Shown here in pieces: positions 10,595 through 33,154 of a stretch of 37,303 nucleotides of DNA. A model generated the notes under the pieces. The model worked only from the letters and a program-made list of their open reading frames with translations. It searched no databases and was not told where the DNA came from. The first letter of the stretch is position 1. Each line of letters starts with the position of its first letter. The translations under genes were made by a program, and so were the position numbers. The stretch comes from a virus, in IMG/VR virus record IMGVR_UViG_3300018080_000347, positions 1-37,303 of that record; one strand, 5' to 3'.

Positions 10595-13500
10595 ATGGCT
10601 AAAGATAATGAGCTGATAATCAGAATTAACGGCAATATTCAGGGCTACAAGGACGCTCTGTCTAAAGCCGGAAAAGAGACTGCAGCTCTACAGGATACCT
10701 TTAACACGATAGCCAAAACGGGGGCGATAGCCTTTGCCGGATTCACGGGGACAATCGCGCTCGCTACAGCTCAATTTGCCGAGTTTGACAACGGGCTAAG
10801 AGGAGTCAAAACTCTGCTTGATGAAACCAGCTTCGCAACTGGCACTCTTGACGAGAACTTCCAAAAGCTTTCTGGTGACGCGCTTGGAGCATTGACTGAG
10901 TTTCCCGTTACACTGCAGGCCGTCAACAAATCCCTTTTCGATATCGTTTCAGCCGGGGTCAACGCCGAAAAAGCGATTGGAGTTCTGGGAAGCACGTCGC
11001 GCTTGGCCGTCGCCGGTATAACTTCGGCGGCGGTGGCGACAGACGGCGTAACGTCCGCCTTGAACGCTTACGGACTTGAAGCTGAACAAGCGGAACTTGT
11101 CGCGGCCAAGTTTTTCACTGCTCAGAAGTTTGGAAAGACGACGATTGCGGAACTTTCAAGTTTTTTCGGGGAGGCTGCCAGTTCAGCCCAGTCTTACGGC
11201 GTTTCGCTTGAAGAACTGCTCGCGGCGGTGTCGGCGGCGACAACGGGAGGAATCAAGACCGCTCAGGCATACACATCTGTAACTGCAGTATTAAGCAATG
11301 TAGCTAAGCCAACGAGGGAGGCGGCTGAAGAGGCTGAAAGGCTCGGTATTGAATTCAATTCAACTTCCCTTAGAGCGAAAGGACTTGAAGGTTTTTTGAA
11401 TGAGCTTACAAGCGCGCAGGACTTCAATAAACAGTCAGTTGAAAGATTATTCGGATCAGTTGAGGCTCAAAAGCTTATTTTTTCCTTAACGGGCGAGCAG
11501 GCCGGAAAATTCAAAGAAACTTTAGATGCCCTTTCCGATTCTCAACAGCTTCTGACGACCTTCACTAACGCTTACGAGGAGCAAAGTCAGAGCCTCAAGA
11601 ATCAGCTCGTAATTTTAGGGAATAACTTTCAAGCGCTCAATATTCTGGTAGGCGCGAACCTTGCGCCAAACGTTACTGTGCTGACGACCGCGACAACTAA
11701 ATTTCTAAAGCTTCTTCAGCAGAATCCCGCTCTGGCCGAATTTATTTCCAAACTGGTTTTGGCCGGAACGGTGACGGCGGCTTTAACGGCTGCCGTCGGT
11801 CTCTCGGGAATCGCTATTTTGAAGTTTCGGGCGGCTCTGATTGCTTCTTCAGCCGCTACGAAAGGTTTGACGCTTGCTACAAAAAGCTTGCTTGGCTCTA
11901 CCGGTCTTGGTCTGTTTATCGCGTTCCTGCCCGAAATAGTCCAGCTTCTGGATAATAGCCTGATTCCGGCGCTTGGCCTTACTGCCGTAGGGTTCTACAA
12001 GACACTAAAGGCGGTACAGGCCGCGACGACAGCAGTAAATGGGATGCGTGTCGCCATTAAAGGGTTGCTGATTCAAACCGGGCTAGGGCTTTTAATTGCT
12101 TTTTTGCCAGAGATCATTCAACTAATCGAGAAGTTTTTTGGCGACACGAACGAGGCGACGGCTAAAGGCACGGCGGAACAAAAACGGCTTCTTCTTCAGC
12201 AAGAGAAAGACCAAAAAGCGATCTACACGGCCAGGCTGCGAGGCGCGACGGAGCAGGAGCTTGAATTTCTGAGAAGAAAGCAGGAGCTGAGAGCGAAAGA
12301 AAACGCTTTAGAAAAGATCGCAGACGAGGATATAAAGCGGACTAAGCTTATTAATCTTAGATTGCTTCAGGAACAGCTTTTAAAAGAAGAAAGTGCGTAT
12401 CAGGAAGAACGTCAAAAAGAACGACAGGCGGCTGCGCAAAAAGAGTCTGAGACTGAGAAGAAGGTCGTTGACTCAAAACTTGAGGCTCTCAGGAATGAAA
12501 ACGAGAGAATTCAAGCTTTCTTGTCCGAGCAAAGCAGCGAAGAAATTGCTTTTCTGAAGCGGCGTCAAGGCCTAAAAACGAAGCAGAGAGAGGCCGAAGC
12601 GGAGCAGGACGAGCGACGAAGGGCGGCGGCTCTGGAAAATGTCAAACTTCTAAATGAACAGCTCATCAAAGAAGAACAGGATTTTTTCACTGAACAGGAA
12701 AAGATCAAAGCCGAAAAATCAGCAAAAGACGAAGAGGAGAGGCAAAAGGAAGAAGGCGAACGACAGAAAAGAATTCAAGGCCTGAAAGATGAAAGCGAAG
12801 CTCTAAGGGCTTCCTTTGACGACCAGAAAAAGCAAGAAGCCGCTTTTCTTCAGCAGCGTCAGGATATCAGAGAACAGGCGCGAGCAATTGAAAGCATCAA
12901 AGATGCTGAAGAGCGCGAAGCTGCTATTGAAAATTTAAGGCTTAAGCAAACTGCGCTGGCGATCGCCGAAGCTGAATACTTCGCTCAACGCTCGGAGCTT
13001 AGACGCGAAGAAGAAGAGCGAGAGATCGCTATAGCAGACGAGCTGGCCGCACTGGATGCCGAAAAGCGTAAAGCTCTACGAGATCAGGAATTACAGGAAT
13101 TGCGGGACTCTTTCGAGAGTAAAGAGAAAATTCGTTCTCAGGCGGTCAAAAAAGAAATTCTGGCTATCAGAAAAGAGAATCAGCTCAGAGCTAAAGATGA
13201 AGAGAAATTCGGCAAGACGATTGCCGCGATAAAGGCTTTTTTTCGAAAAGAGGAATTCCAGAACGCTCAACAGGCTTTGTTTGCTCTGACGCAGCTTCAA
13301 CGCTCTGAAAATGCGGTACAACAAGCTATCGGCAAGGCGGCGGCCCTGGTGCAAATCACAATCGACACGCAGCGCGGCGCTACGGCGGCTTACTCGGCTT
13401 TGGCCGGAATACCGGTCGTTGGGCCGGCGCTCGGTGCGGCGGCGGCTACAGCCGTAATCGCTTACGGAGCTGAAAGAGCTATTCAGGTGCAGAAAGCGCA

Positions 13501-13774
13501 GCAAGGCGGAATTGTCGCGGGAACTGGTTTCGGTGATCGAATTCCATTTCTGCTTGAACCGGGCGAGCTGATAACCCCACGCCAAAACTTCGAGGAGGTC
13601 GTCAACGCCGTGGCTGATCAGCGAGCGGTGCGGCGCGAGACTGAAGAGGTCGAAGAAGAAGCGGAAGCAAGGCGCGTTGAGGTGATAATCGGTTTTCAGG
13701 ACAACGCGGCTGACTTCCTGACGGTGCGGCAAAATGAGGATAGATTTTCGGGAACTTCTCAAAGGATAGGATAA
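10595..13774 (+). CDS. Tail tape measure protein
   Basis: At 1059 residues this is the longest gene in the window. It starts directly after the chaperone stop. The N-terminal third has the TP901-type tape-measure core with GITSAAVATDGVTSALNAYG, quoted as such, and a segment TAVLSNVAKPT around residue 230. Hydrophobic segments occur near 430-450 and 490-510 and share GLGLxIAFLPEIxQL, a visible internal duplication. Residues ~545-830 hold three coiled-coil repeats of about 95 residues, each starting EExAFLxxRQ-like. The C-terminal ~100 residues have a Gly/Ala-rich hydrophobic segment (IPVVGPALGAAAATAVIAYG). It sets tail length and probably enters the host envelope. Confidence 0.88.
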   Translation: MAKDNELIIRINGNIQGYKDALSKAGKETAALQDTFNTIAKTGAIAFAGFTGTIALATAQFAEFDNGLRGVKTLLDETSFATGTLDENFQKLSGDALGALTEFPVTLQAVNKSLFDIVSAGVNAEKAIGVLGSTSRLAVAGITSAAVATDGVTSALNAYGLEAEQAELVAAKFFTAQKFGKTTIAELSSFFGEAASSAQSYGVSLEELLAAVSAATTGGIKTAQAYTSVTAVLSNVAKPTREAAEEAERLGIEFNSTSLRAKGLEGFLNELTSAQDFNKQSVERLFGSVEAQKLIFSLTGEQAGKFKETLDALSDSQQLLTTFTNAYEEQSQSLKNQLVILGNNFQALNILVGANLAPNVTVLTTATTKFLKLLQQNPALAEFISKLVLAGTVTAALTAAVGLSGIAILKFRAALIASSAATKGLTLATKSLLGSTGLGLFIAFLPEIVQLLDNSLIPALGLTAVGFYKTLKAVQAATTAVNGMRVAIKGLLIQTGLGLLIAFLPEIIQLIEKFFGDTNEATAKGTAEQKRLLLQQEKDQKAIYTARLRGATEQELEFLRRKQELRAKENALEKIADEDIKRTKLINLRLLQEQLLKEESAYQEERQKERQAAAQKESETEKKVVDSKLEALRNENERIQAFLSEQSSEEIAFLKRRQGLKTKQREAEAEQDERRRAAALENVKLLNEQLIKEEQDFFTEQEKIKAEKSAKDEEERQKEEGERQKRIQGLKDESEALRASFDDQKKQEAAFLQQRQDIREQARAIESIKDAEEREAAIENLRLKQTALAIAEAEYFAQRSELRREEEEREIAIADELAALDAEKRKALRDQELQELRDSFESKEKIRSQAVKKEILAIRKENQLRAKDEEKFGKTIAAIKAFFRKEEFQNAQQALFALTQLQRSENAVQQAIGKAAALVQITIDTQRGATAAYSALAGIPVVGPALGAAAATAVIAYGAERAIQVQKAQQGGIVAGTGFGDRIPFLLEPGELITPRQNFEEVVNAVADQRAVRRETEEVEEEAEARRVEVIIGFQDNAADFLTVRQNEDRFSGTSQRIG

Positions 13775-19928: not shown

Positions 19929-20335
19929 TAAATATCTGATATTACTTGCTTTTTAGAAGTGTAACCTTTCAGAAGCTGGACGTACAGATTGACGAGATTT
20001 TCCAGTTCGTTAATAGAAATCTTGTCGATATCCGGCTTTTCAAGAGAGTAGATATCCGGAAGCTTGCATAATAGTCTAAGCTTTTCGCAATACTCATTGT
20101 ATTTCGCCGTCTGGTCTTTGCTAAGATCAAGCTCCAGGTACGAAGATTTCCAGCTATCACCTATTTCATTAAGAGATTGCTTGCTGAATTTGCGCTCTCC
20201 GTATGCGTCCTCGATCATGCACTGCGTCTTGGTCGTTCTGGTTATTTCACGAATAACAAAAAACCATCTGCGGTCATAATAATCTCCCACCAACTCACGA
20301 AGTAAAACTTTGTCTCCAACTTTTATTTCATGCAT
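19928..20335 (-). CDS. Hypothetical protein with N-terminal SH3-like beta part
   Basis: The first ~50 residues look like a small beta barrel (VGDKVLLRELVGDYYDRRWFFVI), followed by a helical C-terminal half with conserved-looking LPDIYSLEKPDI and many Leu/Lys. I do not recognise the family. The start overlaps the HNH gene by 13 bases, so it is the last gene of the minus-strand operon. Confidence 0.6.
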   Translation of the reverse strand: MHEIKVGDKVLLRELVGDYYDRRWFFVIREITRTTKTQCMIEDAYGERKFSKQSLNEIGDSWKSSYLELDLSKDQTAKYNEYCEKLRLLCKLPDIYSLEKPDIDKISINELENLVNLYVQLLKGYTSKKQVISDI

Positions 20336-20733
20336 GACTTTTTCTCCATATGGAATTTTCCTGAAAATGGCTTGTCTCGCGTAATTCCGAACAGCTCCGC
20401 GACTTCCAGAAGATAAGCCTTTTTTCTCTTGCTTTTTTCCGTTCTCGGATTTTTGGGAAGTTTCCCTAAACGCTCATGAAGTCCCGCGAGATACCAGTTC
20501 CTGAAATCTTCAAGATTGAGCGCGCCTTTATAGTGATTGACGATTTTCTGCACGGGAATCATGTTGTCTAATCTATGCTCATACTCGCGCAGCGCATCGT
20601 TTTTCCAGCCAGTCCGCAAGATCGGGACGACATGATCAATTTGCCAATCATCTTTCAGGGGAGTTCCCGTATAGGCGCATTTCCCGTCTAATTTCAGCCG
20701 AATAACCTCGCGGTTCTTCTTTGAGATGTACAT
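20323..20733 (-). CDS. HNH endonuclease
   Basis: Residues 15-70 have the HNH pattern: CAYTG (Cys19), WQIDHVVPI (Asp33-His34), then DNMIPVQKIVNHYKG (Asn57, His67). HNH proteins cut DNA. This one is 136 residues and lacks a second Cys pair, so it may be metal-dependent without a zinc knuckle. It could be a homing nuclease, a packaging-associated nuclease or an attack on host DNA. It is not beside the terminase, which argues against the packaging role. It overlaps the MazG-like stop by one base. Confidence 0.72.
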   Translation of the reverse strand: MYISKKNREVIRLKLDGKCAYTGTPLKDDWQIDHVVPILRTGWKNDALREYEHRLDNMIPVQKIVNHYKGALNLEDFRNWYLAGLHERLGKLPKNPRTEKSKRKKAYLLEVAELFGITRDKPFSGKFHMEKKSCMK

Positions 20734-21146: not shown

Positions 21147-21660
21147 CTTTAATTGTGTTGAATTCGATGCCAAGTCTTTCGGCTTCTTCGCGAGCTTGCT
21201 TGGTCGGTTTAGCTATATTACTGAGAACGGCAGTAAGCGAAAGACCGCCGACTTGCCGTGTTTCGTCTTCGTCAAAGGGGTCGAAGCTTTTTTCGCAAGC
21301 TTCGCAATAGATCATTTTCCTGTAGTCGGGAACTTGATCTTCACGCCTGTTCAAATCCTCCGGCGCAGGCAAAAGCAATTGCTCAGTGTCCATGGACCGT
21401 CCCGCCTTCAAATGCTCCTGAACCGCCTCTAGAAAGATTCCGTTGTTCATGATGAAATGCTTTAGCCACCATACCGGTATCCAATCACTAAAGGCTCCAT
21501 GCTCTACGATGTCTTTAGCCGGGGTAGGATCTAAATTTTTATCAATCCATTTTTTCACCTGCATTTCTCGTCGAAGCCGTTTTTGCTCTCTGATAGCCAT
21601 CTCTCTAGACTCAAAAAGATCGCCGTCTTGCGTTTTATAGCAAGTTACTTTTTCAATCAT
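21130..21660 (-). CDS. Hypothetical protein ending in a tape-measure-like segment
   Basis: The 176-residue product begins MIEKVTCYKT and has a basic helical N-terminus, a CEAC motif (Cys119, Cys122) and an acidic stretch. Its last ~36 residues (from LSLTAVLSNIAKPT) closely resemble residues ~228-257 of the tape measure protein in this genome: TAVLSN-AKPT and EEAERLGIEFN are shared, but the DNA differs at many third positions. The function is unknown; the C-terminal part looks captured from a related tape measure gene. The start follows GAGGACATGGA, and the gene overlaps the MazG-like start by 17 bases. Confidence 0.7.
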   Translation of the reverse strand: MIEKVTCYKTQDGDLFESREMAIREQKRLRREMQVKKWIDKNLDPTPAKDIVEHGAFSDWIPVWWLKHFIMNNGIFLEAVQEHLKAGRSMDTEQLLLPAPEDLNRREDQVPDYRKMIYCEACEKSFDPFDEDETRQVGGLSLTAVLSNIAKPTKQAREEAERLGIEFNTIKDDSTK

Positions 21661-24075: not shown

Positions 24076-24900
24076 ATGACTAAGGAATTAGCTAAACCTA
24101 TCGATCGTTTCAAGGCGGTTATAAATCATCCCACGGTGCAGGAGCAATTCAAAAACGCTATGGGCAAGGGGGCTGACTTGTTTGTCGCCTCACTGATTGA
24201 CGCATATGCAAGCGATTTGCAAGATTGCGAACCGGGACCGGTTATCCGGGAAGCCTTAAAGGCCGCTGTCCTAAAACTCACCGTCAGCAAGAGCTTAGGA
24301 ACCGCCTATATCGTGCCTTACAACAAAAGTTATAAGGAAAACGGCGAGTGGAAGAAGAAAAAAGTCCCTCAATTCCAGCTTGGCTATAAGGGTATGATCC
24401 AGCTTGCGCAAAGAAGCGGACAATTAAAGAGCTTCAATGATAAAGTGATTTATGAAGGACAGGTGGTGAATGAAGACCAGGTGACCGGAGATATAACGAT
24501 TACGGGAGAGCGCGCCAGCGACAGGGCAATCGGCTATTTCTTTTTTATGCGCCTGATCAACGGTTTTGAAAAATCAATCTACTGGACAAAAGAGCAGGTT
24601 ATCAAGCATGCTGAGGCGAAGAGCCCAAGCTATAAAAATAAAAAATCCGCCTGGTTCACCGACTTTGACGCCATGGCTTTGAAAACGGTTATCAGGCGGC
24701 TTCTCAGCAAGTATGCGCCCATGTCGATTGAATTCGTCAATGTGATGTCTCAGGATGAATCCGAAGAGACCAAAAAACCTGAAGACAAAAATATTGATTT
24801 GGAAGTTGAAGAGCTGCCGCCGAAGCAGGGGGAGGAGCAGTCACAATCAGCACCTATCTCCGAAGAAGAGCGGGACTTTCCAGACGAACCTGCATTTTAA
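24076..24900 (+). CDS. recT: RecT-like single-strand annealing protein
   Basis: The 274-residue protein matches RecT: AVLKLTVSKSLGTAYIVPY, then FQLGYKGMIQLAQRSGQ and KSIYWTKEQVIKHAE, with an acidic C-terminal tail (ISEEERDFPDEPAF). RecT coats single-stranded DNA and anneals complementary strands in phage recombination and replication. No RecE-type exonuclease is present; the adjacent ATPase and MBL proteins could supply end-processing. ACGGAGGAAAC gives a good ribosome site. A hairpin follows at 24916-24934. Confidence 0.9.
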   Translation: MTKELAKPIDRFKAVINHPTVQEQFKNAMGKGADLFVASLIDAYASDLQDCEPGPVIREALKAAVLKLTVSKSLGTAYIVPYNKSYKENGEWKKKKVPQFQLGYKGMIQLAQRSGQLKSFNDKVIYEGQVVNEDQVTGDITITGERASDRAIGYFFFMRLINGFEKSIYWTKEQVIKHAEAKSPSYKNKKSAWFTDFDAMALKTVIRRLLSKYAPMSIEFVNVMSQDESEETKKPEDKNIDLEVEELPPKQGEEQSQSAPISEEERDFPDEPAF

Positions 24901-27659: not shown

Positions 27660-27974
27660 ATGAGTAAGGTTATACATTGCTACGCTATTTCAATAGAACG
27701 CATAAATAGTGAAGAGATATTAAAATTAAAGCTTCATATAGGGGCAAAAATTTTGCACGTCTCCCAGCAGATTGAAGACGTCCGCATTTGGGCGGAGGTT
27801 GATTCCGATGTGGCGGAGGAAGTTCGTCACTTTGAGGTTTTTATGACAGGTCAGGAGATTCCGCAAGATATCGGTATTGAACGACGATATTTGGGGACGG
27901 CGATTTCTGACGGAGGACTTTATGTCTTGCATATTTACGAAAGGCATGAGGTACCGCATGAGCAAAATTCCTGA
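27660..27974 (+). CDS. Small phage protein of the ERRYLGT type
   Basis: The 104-residue protein has IWAEVDSDVAEEVRHFEVF, then ERRYLGTAI and YVLHIYE. This resembles a common family of small phage proteins that end in 'ERRYxGTxxxxGxxVxHxxE' (I believe annotated as DUF7352). The function of the family is not known to me. GGAGG 5 bases before the ATG gives a strong start. Its stop overlaps the next gene by 17 bases. Confidence 0.65.
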   Translation: MSKVIHCYAISIERINSEEILKLKLHIGAKILHVSQQIEDVRIWAEVDSDVAEEVRHFEVFMTGQEIPQDIGIERRYLGTAISDGGLYVLHIYERHEVPHEQNS

Positions 27975-28200
27975 AAAGGTTGATAAAGGACTCTGCCTCA
28001 AAACAAAGTACGGCATAAAAACTATGTACGACGTTGAGGAGCTTACGTTTGAACTGAATAACGTAATCAACCTCTTTCTGAACAGAAAATGTCATGGCAA
28101 CCCCGAGCTGCAAGCCGCTGTTTGGGATCGTCTTGCAACTCACATTGAGGAGTCGGTGCCTAAAGCTTTTCCGGGGTGCTGGCCGGTTAATTATTACTAG
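27958..28200 (+). CDS. Hypothetical small protein with duplicated 3' end
   Basis: The 80-residue product begins MSKIPEKVDKGLCLKTK and ends VPKAFPGCWPVNYY. The family is unknown to me. GAGG precedes the ATG at 27958; an ATG at 27877 is inside the previous gene. A second copy of the last 14 codons is found at 28733-28774 with only synonymous changes, so sequence was inserted behind this gene. Confidence 0.6.
   Translation: MSKIPEKVDKGLCLKTKYGIKTMYDVEELTFELNNVINLFLNRKCHGNPELQAAVWDRLATHIEESVPKAFPGCWPVNYY
28156..28197 (+). repeat. 3'-end repeat, copy 1
   Basis: Codons for VPKAFPGCWPVNYY. The copy at 28733-28774 is identical except for three third-position changes (TTT/TTC, CCG/CCA, TAC/TAT). Confidence 0.9.
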
Positions 28201-28208
28201 GAGGAGTG

Positions 28209-28277
28209 ATGAATATTGTTTCTTTTAGCGGCGGCAAGGACTCGACCGCAATGCTTTTGATGATGACTGCGGAGTAA
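28209..28277 (+). pseudogene. Remnant of a PP-loop (PAPS reductase-like) gene
   Basis: An ATG with GGAGGAG just before it reads NIVSFSGGKDSTAMLLMM and stops after 22 residues. SGGKDST is the PP-loop ATP-pyrophosphatase motif found at the start of phage PAPS reductase-like proteins. The family is normally over 200 residues, so all but the first ~20 residues are gone. The surviving start with a good ribosome site suggests a recent deletion. Confidence 0.65.
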
Positions 28278-28295
28278 TAAAAAGGAGCTAAATCA

Positions 28296-28643
28296 ATGAA
28301 ATGGTGCGAACAAACATTAAAGCCGTCAACTGGGCAAGAAATCGTTGTAAGAGCTAGAGACGGTGCCGGAAGCCGCTGGCATTATCAAATCGGAGTATGG
28401 CTTAACAATGAGTTTCAAAAACAAACTATGGGATATGATATGTACGAATGGCTGCCTCTAGATACTTTTATTAACCTTGAACGTAGGCTTGATCATTTGG
28501 AATTTGAAAGGGCAAGAATGTATGCCCGAGCGTTGCGAGCTGAAGAAGTTATGTATGAAGCCGTTATTAATGGTAATGCTAACAAGTTGATTGATTATGT
28601 CAAGTTGATTGATTATGTAAAGACTGGACTCGAAAACATATAA
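28296..28643 (+). CDS. Hypothetical protein with a tandem KLIDYV repeat
   Basis: The 115-residue product has an N-terminal beta-like part (GQEIVVRARDGAGSRWHYQIG), then helices (LERRLDHLEFERARMYARAL). An 18-base unit coding for KLIDYV is repeated twice near the C-terminus. I do not recognise the family. GGAGC lies before the ATG. It lies in the cargo between the two 3'-end repeats. Confidence 0.55.
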   Translation: MKWCEQTLKPSTGQEIVVRARDGAGSRWHYQIGVWLNNEFQKQTMGYDMYEWLPLDTFINLERRLDHLEFERARMYARALRAEEVMYEAVINGNANKLIDYVKLIDYVKTGLENI

Positions 28644-28791
28644 AAATCCATAAAAATCCATAAAATCACAGAGAAGTTTATTTTGATCATGAGTTTCAGA
28701 CTGAATTCTCAGTGAGAGACGCAGTCTTATCAGTGCCTAAAGCTTTCCCAGGGTGCTGGCCGGTTAATTATTATAATAAAGAGGATTAATA
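28644..28791 (+). other. Spacer with the second 3'-end repeat
   Basis: This stretch carries short tandem ATAAAAATCC units just after the stop at 28643, then a short open frame that ends VPKAFPGCWPVNYYNKED (28733-28789), a remnant of a relative of the gene at 27958. GAGGATTAATA at its end serves as ribosome site for the next gene. No complete gene is seen in it. Confidence 0.6.
28733..28774 (+). repeat. 3'-end repeat, copy 2
   Basis: Second copy of the last 14 codons of the gene at 27958. It is followed here by codons NKED and a TAA at 28787-28789 in place of the TAG. Confidence 0.9.
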
Positions 28792-29176: not shown

Positions 29177-29345
29177 ATGAAACCTTATTTCGAGACTGAA
29201 AACGGAGTTTTGTATTGCGGCGATCGCCTGCGAGAATCTTGGCCGTAAATGGGCGGTAATCGAAAGGGAGGAGAAATATTGCGAGATAGCGGCCAGGCGT
29301 ATTGAAACGGCTGCTAATCAGAAAAGCATTGATGACTATTTGTAA
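29177..29345 (+). pseudogene. Remnant of a DNA (N4/N6) methyltransferase gene
   Basis: The N-terminal frame reads MKPYFETENGVLYCGDRL and stops at 29248. The start resembles phage DNA methylases (MKPYY.D....YHGDCLE). In another frame the end reads CENLGRKWAVIEREEKYCEIAARRI to a TAA at 29343-29345, matching the C-terminal motif ENLGRKWIGIE. The 150+ residues between the two parts (including the DPPY and FxGxG regions) are missing. Thus the first ~16 residues and last ~40 residues of a methylase gene are joined out of frame. Confidence 0.7.
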
Positions 29346-30388: not shown

Positions 30389-31264
30389 GTGAATGCTAAA
30401 AATGAAATTCTTGCCGCCAAAATCGCGCGAGAATTAAAAAACGATACGTCAAAGGTAACTTTGGTTAGCTTTGGAGATTTCTGCAGAAATATGGCACTTA
30501 AAACGCGAAAATCGAACCTACCTAAAAAAACTGATAGTCTGGAAATTTTCAAGCGCGACGGGCAAGGCCGCTATTGCGTGAAAAAAGAGGACTTGCAGGT
30601 CATTCATGACAGGGAGGCGGCCGCCAGACACGGGAATGATCCCGACGCCAGGTTTGACGAGTGGAACTTTCCGGGAACGCGGGAGGAAAGAAAGTTTATT
30701 TTCGCTCATGATTTCGGTTCAGTTGTCGAGGCATCATTGACTGCTCTGGAAGCTGGAAAATGGGTTTATATTTTTGGTGAAGTCGGAAACGGCAAGACCT
30801 CGCTCGCTATGCGGCTGACTTGGGAATTTTTGAAAGATCGTCCTTCCCGCAAAGCTTCTTTCGTGTCTATGAATCGATACAGTATTGATCAGGTCAAGCG
30901 GGAAATGTCGGAACAGGCGATGATTAGAGCCGGTCACGAGACCTACAGCGAAGAATTGAGACTGGCTAACTTTGTGATTCTGGACGATCTGGACAAGGTC
31001 AATTATCGAAACGAGCACAAAACGAGGACGATTCTTGATCTTGTCGAGAGATTGAAAAAAGGCGGTCACCGAGTCGTCGTTACGTCTCAAATTTCACTAA
31101 AGACGATATACGAGCGATATCAGGAAAATTGGGACATGAAACCCCTGATAGACCGCTTCCGGCAAATGTGCCTGATTCTACCGGAATTTCAAGAAAAGAG
31201 TAAAAGAAGGTATGAAAATTTTAGACCTGTTCGCCGGCTCGGGCGGCTTCAGTCTCGGATTTAA
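30389..31264 (+). CDS. DnaC/IstB-like AAA+ helicase loader
   Basis: The 291-residue protein has Walker A GEVGNGKTS (130-138) and Walker B FVILDD (195-200), followed by TSQISL (sensor) and an arginine near 'DRFRQM'. This is the DnaC/IstB type of helicase loader. The N-terminal ~110 residues include a probable helicase-binding part. It starts at GTG 30389 with GGAG 8 bases upstream; no earlier in-frame ATG exists. It overlaps the methyltransferase by 53 bases. Confidence 0.8.
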   Translation: MNAKNEILAAKIARELKNDTSKVTLVSFGDFCRNMALKTRKSNLPKKTDSLEIFKRDGQGRYCVKKEDLQVIHDREAAARHGNDPDARFDEWNFPGTREERKFIFAHDFGSVVEASLTALEAGKWVYIFGEVGNGKTSLAMRLTWEFLKDRPSRKASFVSMNRYSIDQVKREMSEQAMIRAGHETYSEELRLANFVILDDLDKVNYRNEHKTRTILDLVERLKKGGHRVVVTSQISLKTIYERYQENWDMKPLIDRFRQMCLILPEFQEKSKRRYENFRPVRRLGRLQSRI

Positions 31265-31970
31265 GAAAGCCGGATTCGAGACGGCCGCATTCTGCGAAAT
31301 AGACGAGAATTGCCATAATGTCTTGAGTAGAGAGTTTCCTCACGTTCCCATTTACAAAGACATCAAAAAATTTAACGCCGGCGATATTGGTCACGTTGAC
31401 GTGGTAACGGGTGGTTTTCCGTGTCAGGGGCTTTCAATTGCCGGACTTCAGAGAGGAATACGCGATGACGACAGATCAAATTTGTGGTGGGACATGCATG
31501 GAATCATTCGCCAAGTACGACCGAAATTCGCGGTTATGGAAAACGTCCCAAATTTCCTTCGCGAAGGGAACGGAACTTGGTTTGGCGACTTTCTCGGGAG
31601 CCTGGCCGAAATCGGGTATGATGCGGAATGGAAATGTATATCAGCAGCAGACGTCGGCCTCCCGCATCTCCGGGAAAGGGTCTGGGTTGTTGCCTACCCC
31701 ATTGGCGTCAGATTGGATGCCGCTATTTTTAACAAAATCAGCCTGCAGGAATACTTTAAAAAACAACCCCCGCTTCCCAAAATTATCAACTCTCCTGAGA
31801 GCGGCTGGCGTTTATCCTGGAATATTCCCGAACATCTACGAATGGATAATGGGGTACCCCTCGGACTGGACGAAATTAAAGCGAGGGTAAAGATGATGGG
31901 CAATGCGATAGTCCCGGAGATAGCTTATCTGATAGCGAAGGAAATAAGAAAGTTTTTGGAGGAAATATGA
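31212..31970 (+). CDS. DNA cytosine-5 methyltransferase (small Dcm type)
   Basis: Motif I LDLFAGSGGFSLGF (4-17), motif IV GGFPCQG (Cys71 nucleophile), motif VI ENV (110-112), motif VIII RERVWVVAYP (154-163) and motif X GNAIVPEIA are all present. It transfers a methyl group from S-adenosylmethionine to C5 of cytosine, probably to protect phage DNA. At 252 residues it is short, because the target-recognition region (~165-225) is small. A second ORF lies in the +1 frame within it. The last ~24 codons recur at 32873-32943. Confidence 0.88.
   Translation: MKILDLFAGSGGFSLGFKKAGFETAAFCEIDENCHNVLSREFPHVPIYKDIKKFNAGDIGHVDVVTGGFPCQGLSIAGLQRGIRDDDRSNLWWDMHGIIRQVRPKFAVMENVPNFLREGNGTWFGDFLGSLAEIGYDAEWKCISAADVGLPHLRERVWVVAYPIGVRLDAAIFNKISLQEYFKKQPPLPKIINSPESGWRLSWNIPEHLRMDNGVPLGLDEIKARVKMMGNAIVPEIAYLIAKEIRKFLEEI
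31465..31890 (+). CDS. Overlapping +1-frame gene inside the methyltransferase
   Basis: ATG at 31465 with GAGAGGA 7 bases upstream opens a 141-residue frame to 31890, wholly inside the methyltransferase gene. It reads ICGGTCMESFAKYDRN, WKTSQ, WPKSGMMRNGNVY, RISGKGSGLLPTPLASDW and YEWIMGYPSDWTKL. I recognise this as the pattern of phage proteins annotated as methyltransferase-related. The motifs are the shifted reading of conserved methyltransferase motifs: EIGYDAEWK gives KSGMMRNG, and LPHLRERVWVVAYP gives RISGKGSGLLPTP. Translation is supported by start, ribosome site and motif match only. Confidence 0.5.
   Translation: MTTDQICGGTCMESFAKYDRNSRLWKTSQISFAKGTELGLATFSGAWPKSGMMRNGNVYQQQTSASRISGKGSGLLPTPLASDWMPLFLTKSACRNTLKNNPRFPKLSTLLRAAGVYPGIFPNIYEWIMGYPSDWTKLKRG
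31893..31963 (+). repeat. Methyltransferase 3'-end repeat, copy 1
   Basis: This is codons MMGNAIVPEIAYLIAKEIRK and on to LEE of the methyltransferase, including the GGAGGA ribosome site used by the following gene. A second copy at 32873-32943 differs by four third-position changes. Confidence 0.92.
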
Positions 31971-32848
31971 AAGGATATAAAGTTTTTGATCAAAACTGGC
32001 GATGCAAAGATTTTAAATACGAAATCGGCAAGACCTATAAAACAGATAAAAAAATAGTTTTATGTAAAGAAGGTTTTCATTTCTGTGAAAAATTAGTGGA
32101 TTGCTTTAATTATTATGAATTCAATCCGAATAATAAGGTCGCTATTATTGAAGCAAGAAATGACATCATTAAAGGTGATGATAAACACGTCACAAATGAA
32201 ATTGAAATAATTAAAGAACTCACTTGGCATGAAGTTTTAGACATAGTGAACGTTGGAAAAGACAACACAGGCTACAGTAATAGCGGCCACAGTAATAGCG
32301 GCCACAGTAATAGCGGCCACAGTAATAGCGGCCACAGTAATAGCGGCCACTGGAATAGCGGCGACAGTAATAGCGGACACAGTAATAGCGGCGACAGGAA
32401 TAGCGGCGACTGGAATAGCGGCTACAGGAATAGCGGCGACAGGAATAGCGGCTACTGGAATAGCGGCTACTGGAATAGCGGCCAAGGGAATAGCGGCGAC
32501 TGGAATTCAAGCAATTATGAGACTGGATTCTTTAATTCACGGCAATCAAACATTATAAATGTATTCAATAAACCCTGCGAACGTAAAGTGTGGGAAGAAT
32601 CAAAAAAACCAGATTTTATATTTTTCAACGTCACTCAATGGGTATCGGAATCAGATATGACTGAACGGGAAAAAGAAGACAACCCTAATTGTAAAACAGC
32701 CGGCGGCTATTTAAAAACGCTTGAATATAAAGAAGCTTGGCGTTTGGCTTATGAATCAGCTACGCAGGAAGATATTGAACTTCTAAAAGCTTTGCCGAAT
32801 TTCGACGTTGATGTTTTTGAAGAAATTTCAGGAATACGAGTAGACTAG
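31967..32848 (+). CDS. NSG-pentapeptide repeat protein (DUF7666-type)
   Basis: The N-terminal ~95 residues (YKVFDQNWRCKDFKYEIGK, CKEGFHFCEKLVDCFNYY) resemble a phage domain I know as DUF7666. Residues ~100-181 are about 16 copies of a 5-residue unit NSG(H/D/Y)(S/R/W), coded by a 15-base unit. The C-terminal ~110 residues end with a helical part (LKTLEYKEAWRLAYESA). Similar proteins are frequent in phages, with unknown roles; the repeats may form a stacked helix. It starts by ATGA overlap with the methyltransferase and is flanked by the 3'-end repeats. Confidence 0.7.
   Translation: MKGYKVFDQNWRCKDFKYEIGKTYKTDKKIVLCKEGFHFCEKLVDCFNYYEFNPNNKVAIIEARNDIIKGDDKHVTNEIEIIKELTWHEVLDIVNVGKDNTGYSNSGHSNSGHSNSGHSNSGHSNSGHWNSGDSNSGHSNSGDRNSGDWNSGYRNSGDRNSGYWNSGYWNSGQGNSGDWNSSNYETGFFNSRQSNIINVFNKPCERKVWEESKKPDFIFFNVTQWVSESDMTEREKEDNPNCKTAGGYLKTLEYKEAWRLAYESATQEDIELLKALPNFDVDVFEEISGIRVD
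32269..32510 (+). repeat. Tandem 15-base repeat array
   Basis: About 16 units of (A/T)(G)(T/G)AATAGCGGC(C/G/T)AC type code for NSGxx pentapeptides. The first five units are almost identical and later units vary at the first and last codons. Other frames and the opposite strand are also open across the array, which follows from the repeat itself. Confidence 0.92.
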
Positions 32849-32959
32849 AAAAAATAAACTAAAATAGGCTAAATGATGGGCAATGCGATAGTGCCGGAAA
32901 TAGCTTATCTGATAGCTAAGGAAATAAGAAAGTTTTTGGAGGAGGTTTAAGGAAATGAT
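32849..32959 (+). pseudogene. Spacer holding a methyltransferase 3' remnant
   Basis: After the repeat gene stop, ATG ATG at 32873 reads MMGNAIVPEIAYLIAKEI to LEEV and TAA at 32948-32950. This is a 25-codon remnant of a methyltransferase end. GGAGG and AAGGAA near 32940-32954 can act as ribosome sites for the membrane gene that follows. Confidence 0.8.
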
Positions 32960-33154
32960 ATGATCAATGTTATGATCAATGTGCCGTTTTACTGGTGGTA
33001 TATACCAGTTGTTTTATTCTGCATTCCTCTTGTTTATAGCTTTTTGGTGTCAAGGCATATGATTAAAGGCGATATAATAATTGAAATGGTCCTGGTACTG
33101 ACTTGTTGGTCTGTCTGTTTAGGTATGTATTTAATGTATTTTTTCACAGGATAA
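32960..33154 (+). CDS. Small two-span membrane protein
   Basis: The 64-residue product has two hydrophobic helices (WWYIPVVLFCIPLVYSFLV and IIIEMVLVLTCWSVCLGMYL) around a short basic loop. The first 12 bases are duplicated (ATGATCAATGTT then ATGATCAATGTG), so a start 12 bases later at 32972 is possible. The function is unknown; a membrane role such as superinfection exclusion is conceivable without evidence. Confidence 0.6.
   Translation: MINVMINVPFYWWYIPVVLFCIPLVYSFLVSRHMIKGDIIIEMVLVLTCWSVCLGMYLMYFFTG

Follow-up and report, generated by a model that had tools for sequence, protein, structure and literature searches.

A gene 3'-end direct repeat flanks an insert at two loci of the window, i.e. 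the whole 37.3-kb virus record analysed here, which carries tailed-phage genes (Table 1). At both loci, the left gene is intact and the right copy is truncated on its 5' side. At the locus studied in most depth, a C5 cytosine DNA methyltransferase gene ends in copy 1, is followed by a cargo gene with a DUF7666 domain, and its 3' end recurs as copy 2 ahead of a small membrane gene. With moderate confidence, we propose that this arrangement is the scar left when related phages recombined and a gene was acquired, in which copy 1 would be the incoming version and copy 2 the resident one.

Duplicated gene ends around inserted genes

The direct repeat detected by a repeat search covers 71 nt (31893-31963 and 32873-32943; 68/71 identical) on the same strand, 980 nt apart, and a match of this length at 96% identity is not due to chance. 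The comparison of the 24 whole codons (31893-31964 versus 32873-32944) yielded four differences, GTC/GTG, GAG/GAA, GCG/GCT and GAA/GAG (copy 1/copy 2), which all lie at third positions and are all silent. Beyond these codons, the last codon (ATA/GTT) and the stops (TGA/TAA) differ. The two approaches agree with the original prediction that the last 24 codons of the methyltransferase recur behind a gene with N-S-G repeats, and differ only by silent changes and the last codon.

Table 1. Features of the window at and around the two duplicated gene ends.
Coordinates	Strand	Feature	Details
24076..24900	+	RecT-family annealing recombinase	PF03837, E=1e-42
27958..28200	+	Second case: small gene, 80 aa	Final 15 codons (28153-28197) duplicated
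28201..28729	+	Second case: insert, ~0.5 kb	PP-loop/PAPS-reductase-like start and 115-aa gene
28730..28774	+	Second case: displaced copy	41/45 nt and 15/15 aa identical; then NKED and stop
31212..31970	+	C5 cytosine DNA methyltransferase, 252 aa, intact	3' end is copy 1
31411..31890	+	Overlapping +1 reading frame inside the methyltransferase gene	
31893..31970	+	Copy 1: methyltransferase final 25 codons and stop	With GGAGG ahead of the cargo gene
31967..32848	+	Cargo gene, 293 aa	DUF7666 domain and N-S-G pentapeptide-type repeat
32849..32872	+	AT-rich spacer, 24 nt	Immediately 5' of ATGATGGGC; read directly from the sequence
32873..32950	+	Copy 2: 25 codons and stop of a second methyltransferase allele	3' end displaced
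32960..33154	+	Small membrane gene, 64 aa	AAGGA 6 nt upstream

In profile searches, the methyltransferase matched PF00145 (E=8e-52) and, across residues 1-248, phrog_363 (E=2e-68). The motifs PCQ, ENVP and GNAIVP were seen by reading the sequence, and this reading together with the PF00145 match places the C5 motifs I, IV, VI, VIII and X in a single frame. The cargo gene matched PF24703 (E=2e-31), PF01469 (E=3e-17) and phrog_14105. The GC contents of 0.29 and 0.37 in the cargo gene outside the repeats, versus 0.48 in the methyltransferase gene, fit a foreign origin of the cargo gene itself. For the membrane gene, which we propose to be the original neighbour of copy 2, no relatives were found in Pfam, PHROG and sequence searches. 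At the junctions, no promoter or terminator stood out above chance, except for one weak terminator-like hairpin (32991-33009) within the membrane gene.

It had also been proposed that each copy carries a GGAGG-type ribosome site. This is the case for copy 1, the GGAGG of which (31958-31962) stands 4 nt ahead of the cargo ATG at 31967, but in copy 2 the GGAGGAGG ends 14 nt short of the membrane-gene ATG at 32960, for which the AAGGA lying just beyond the repeat (32949-32953) is a better-spaced site. The accompanying proposal that an insertion between the copies spares both downstream genes holds, as each of them has its own leader and neither neighbour is broken. Copy 2 itself is probably not translated.

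The whole-window repeat scan revealed a second gene-end duplication with the same layout (28153-28197 and 28730-28774). The small gene concerned ends in SVPKAFPGCWPVNYY, the duplicated 15 codons, and the four differences between its two copies are again all silent. The insert comprises a 115-aa gene (28296-28643) without family and, at 28209-28277, a 22-codon remnant (MNIVSFSGGKDSTAMLLMMTAE) that resembles the start of PP-loop/PAPS reductase-type proteins (weak matches).

Other gene pieces were found in the window. A 29-codon piece (11276-11362) of the tape-measure gene (10595-13774) recurs at 21154-21240, close to the C-terminal end of an ORF on the minus strand, with 79% identity at the protein level and 19 of 27 differences at third positions. 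In the same region as the duplicated gene ends, at 29178-29345, what seems to be an N6/N4 DNA methylase gene has lost its central part, and the first codons, from 29178 (start MKPYFETENGVLYCGDRL), run directly into the last 41 (C-terminal AIACENLGRKWAVIEREEKYCEIAARRIE). Together, the second pair, the tape-measure piece, the collapsed methylase and the PP-loop start indicate that this genome repeatedly took up and cut gene pieces. The RecT-family protein that it encodes is a possible agent of recombination between diverged sequences. On the minus strand, 20323-20733 likely encodes an HNH-type endonuclease, as judged by eye (CAYTGTPLKDDWQIDHVVP), with no match in Pfam or NCBIfam.

Silent divergence and the proposed origin of the copies

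When both pairs are taken together, all changes are silent (8/8). Without selection, random changes in these sequences should be silent in a proportion of 0.20-0.27. The chance of four silent changes out of four is then p ~0.002-0.003 (methyltransferase pair) or ~0.002-0.005 (second pair), and the joint chance of 8/8 under free drift is ~4e-6 to 2e-5. These values indicate that, in each pair, the two copies derive from functional genes. As suggested by the pattern of substitutions, the divergence most likely predates the meeting of the two versions in a single genome, and arose while each was part of a functional gene. The prediction that the second copy derives from a functional methyltransferase, and not from a neutral duplicate, was borne out by this silent-only pattern and strengthened by the second pair, and a duplication within one lineage, after which the second copy drifted freely, is unlikely. 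The silent differences also gauge the distance between the parental alleles, about 6-9% at the DNA level.

Silent-only changes would also be left by a local duplication in one lineage with both copies under purifying selection, the displaced 25-codon piece (MMGNAIVPEIAYLIAKEIRKFLEEV) being used as a short protein or as a leader of the membrane gene; in keeping with such a use, copy 2 opens with ATG ATG straight after a TAA. We nevertheless regard this possibility as quite unlikely, from the following lines of evidence. First, there is no evident ribosome site in the sequence upstream of 32873. Second, a leader role would not preserve codons. Third, the unrelated second gene end has the same pattern, and its displaced copy is without an evident start.

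With respect to the direction of the transfer, it had been predicted that copy 2 came in from a relative together with the cargo gene, copy 1 being resident. The silent-only divergence is equally compatible with this order, but we find it unlikely and infer the reverse one. First, the cargo ATG overlaps the methyltransferase stop (ATGA, 31967-31970), a junction typical of established operons, so that copy 1 probably arrived coupled to the cargo gene and copy 2 would be the displaced resident. Second, copy 2 stands directly ahead of the membrane gene, whereas the AT-rich spacer, which is non-coding, parts it from the cargo gene. Third, no gene body lies ahead of copy 2. The blocks that met would be copy 1 with the cargo gene, on the one hand, and copy 2 with the membrane gene, on the other hand.

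We propose that the resident genome recombined with a DNA block from a relative, in which a methyltransferase end was coupled to the DUF7666 gene. At the left end, an exchange within the methyltransferase gene, either homologous or homeologous, would result in one intact enzyme gene ending in the 3' end of the incoming allele. At the right end, an illegitimate join inside the resident methyltransferase gene, about 25 codons ahead of its stop, would push the resident 3' end and the downstream membrane gene behind the cargo gene. The AT-rich spacer is the putative site of this join, and no clear microhomology was seen at the right junction. Such insertions could persist, because the downstream gene retains its own leader and ribosome site. 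Speaking against this explanation, two such events within a single early region would require that exchange with close relatives occurred repeatedly, and no such relative has been sampled.

The e14 prophage brings a recoded replacement 3' end for icd. If the cargo gene were likewise a mobile element targeting gene ends, its recoded 3' end would restore an intact gene, as seen here twice in one genome. This interpretation is very improbable, because neither insert shows a recombinase or an endonuclease: the first insert is a single DUF7666 gene, without integrase, recombinase or homing endonuclease gene in Pfam and PHROG searches, and the second one has no recombinase or homing endonuclease gene in Pfam/NCBIfam searches. 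In addition, the two inserts are unrelated, as are the two target sites, and there are neither inverted ends nor a repeat common to both cases.

Two alleles of one gene end could occur in one contig if the assembly had joined two co-existing strains, with and without the cargo gene, and the record is one without known completeness. Such an artefact appears improbable, since the right junction has no long word in common with the resident sequence, as a graph assembler would need, since two such joins would have to occur in one contig, and since a similar scar is present in another deposited phage sequence (MT835533, see below).

Searches of IMG/VR, INPHARED, GTDB contigs and terminase-based relatives found neither this methyltransferase nor the copy-2 variant nor the cargo-free gene order in any relative, so that the parental arrangements and junctions are unseen, which limits the confidence in the recombination between related phages that we favour. 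In INPHARED phages, the best match to the methyltransferase reached ~38% identity across most of its length, compared with 34-36% in IMG/VR and GTDB, and a degenerate DNA pattern for MMGNAIVPEIAY had no match in IMG/VR. No close relative emerged from a plasmid search, from INPHARED protein and DNA searches, from searches with the helicase loader, the membrane gene or the second-case gene as queries, or from scanning the terminase-based relatives for a methyltransferase and a DUF7666 gene. Judged by its structural genes, L020 is the nearest phage (terminase 61%, portal 65%, capsid 76%), and according to a scan it has neither a methyltransferase nor a DUF7666 gene. Another candidate, L023, possesses a C5 methyltransferase gene upstream of a DUF7666 gene, but it was rejected because the enzymes resemble each other only distantly, the two genes are separated by others and no gene end is duplicated.

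The proposed mechanism resembles known systems. Homology at one end combined with illegitimate joining at the other end has been described in bacteria as homology-facilitated illegitimate recombination (HFIR; PMC3240628), and as in our proposal it introduces foreign DNA in one step. However, HFIR is known from bacterial transformation and conjugation, and its predicted product is a deletion, whereas here the recipient gene end is kept downstream. In the T6SS arrays of Vibrio cholerae, which contain orphan immunity genes, an incoming module is proposed to shift old effector 3' ends downstream (PMC5361080). In both situations, a conserved 5' part receives a new module behind it and the former 3' end persists at a downstream position, but the T6SS cargo is a chromosomal effector-immunity pair of a bacterium for which related strains are known, whereas the window has a phage cargo gene without assigned role and no parental strains were found. 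Finally, phage Red proteins efficiently recombine genes diverged by 22% (PMC2327257), and homeologous recombination of this type explains block exchange between diverged phages. The window has RecT, which is a different protein from the one tested in that work, and duplicated gene ends were not its subject. The mechanism of the scar is an already known kind of recombination, and the gain in understanding is modest.

A +1 reading frame overlapping the methyltransferase gene

The methyltransferase gene also contains an overlapping +1 reading frame, which we rate as more striking than the gene-end scar, and the stop of which ends 2 nt ahead of the repeat start. Sequences related to its translation occur in 50 phage records, and the translation matches phrog_1008. 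Sixteen genes, from the window, other phages and one archaeal plasmid, were tested in the methyltransferase frame, and the +1 open stretch was longer than the synonymous-codon-shuffle expectation in 14 of them (p 0.035 or less), the exceptions being L074 and L075. The genes listed with the +1 frame are those of the window, L033-L039, L071-L073, L076-L078 and L081. For two further genes (L071 and L078), the deposited annotation gives the +1 frame in place of the methyltransferase frame, which is found beside it.

The +1 frame overlies conserved methyltransferase motifs and displays the pattern SFAKYD...WKTSQ...FSGxWPRSGMMRNG...LLPTPxASD...EWMMGFPxGWT. Its MGFPxGWT segment resembles the methyltransferase motif IX, and motif X stays in frame 0; in the window, the motif IX-like EWIMGYPSDWT occurs in the +1 frame and is absent from frame 0. 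The frame-0 glycine ahead of Y/F-D/N-A-x-W is encoded by GGG in all genes with a motif-search match (12/12, including two longer, more typical C5 methyltransferases), and GGG represents 9-37% of the glycine codons in those genes. Only GGG preserves the glycine of the +1 motif SGMMRNG. As judged from these sequence comparisons, the +1 frame is conserved across distant phages.

A literature text search found no description of this overlapping frame; being keyword-based, it is no proof of novelty. The nearest described case, to be compared with the +1 frame and not with the repeat, is the out-of-frame HNH insertion in the methylase gene of phage ShiLan (PMC11855218). Both are phage methylase genes with a second coding frame, but that of ShiLan is a homing insertion, whereas the +1 frame of the window is not in an insertion.

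Frequency and meaning of gene-end scars

As a base rate, gapless direct repeats of at least 36 nt and at least 85% identity, within 150-4000 nt of each other, were searched for in ~0.99 Mb from 71 sequences, which include the window and are not all independent. Apart from tandem repeats, the search yielded just a few cases, so gene-end scars are an uncommon class, which is not unique to the window. In MT835533 (an unrelated gut phage), the copies 31098-31140 and 31505-31547 surround one inserted gene: NLSYFPYKKK occurs at the end of a gene and again, behind the insert, ahead of the next gene, the repeat being made of the last codons of the gene and the leader.

The scan also returned a repeat of 66 nt (88%) in L020, at 1243-1308 and 2089-2154, upstream of two minus-strand genes and not at gene ends. 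It includes promoter- or operator-like sequence, and the accessory genes there may have a common control region.

The two cases of the window and the one in the gut phage are compatible with, but do not prove, the view that phages recurrently, and under selection, expand tight operons by single-gene insertion with copying of the upstream 3' end, a route that leaves the neighbours unbroken. We consider this general view unlikely; if true, displaced gene ends would mark gene gains genome-wide. The scar itself offers a clean record of a phage gaining a gene, and such scars, which are countable across phage genomes, could measure gene gain.
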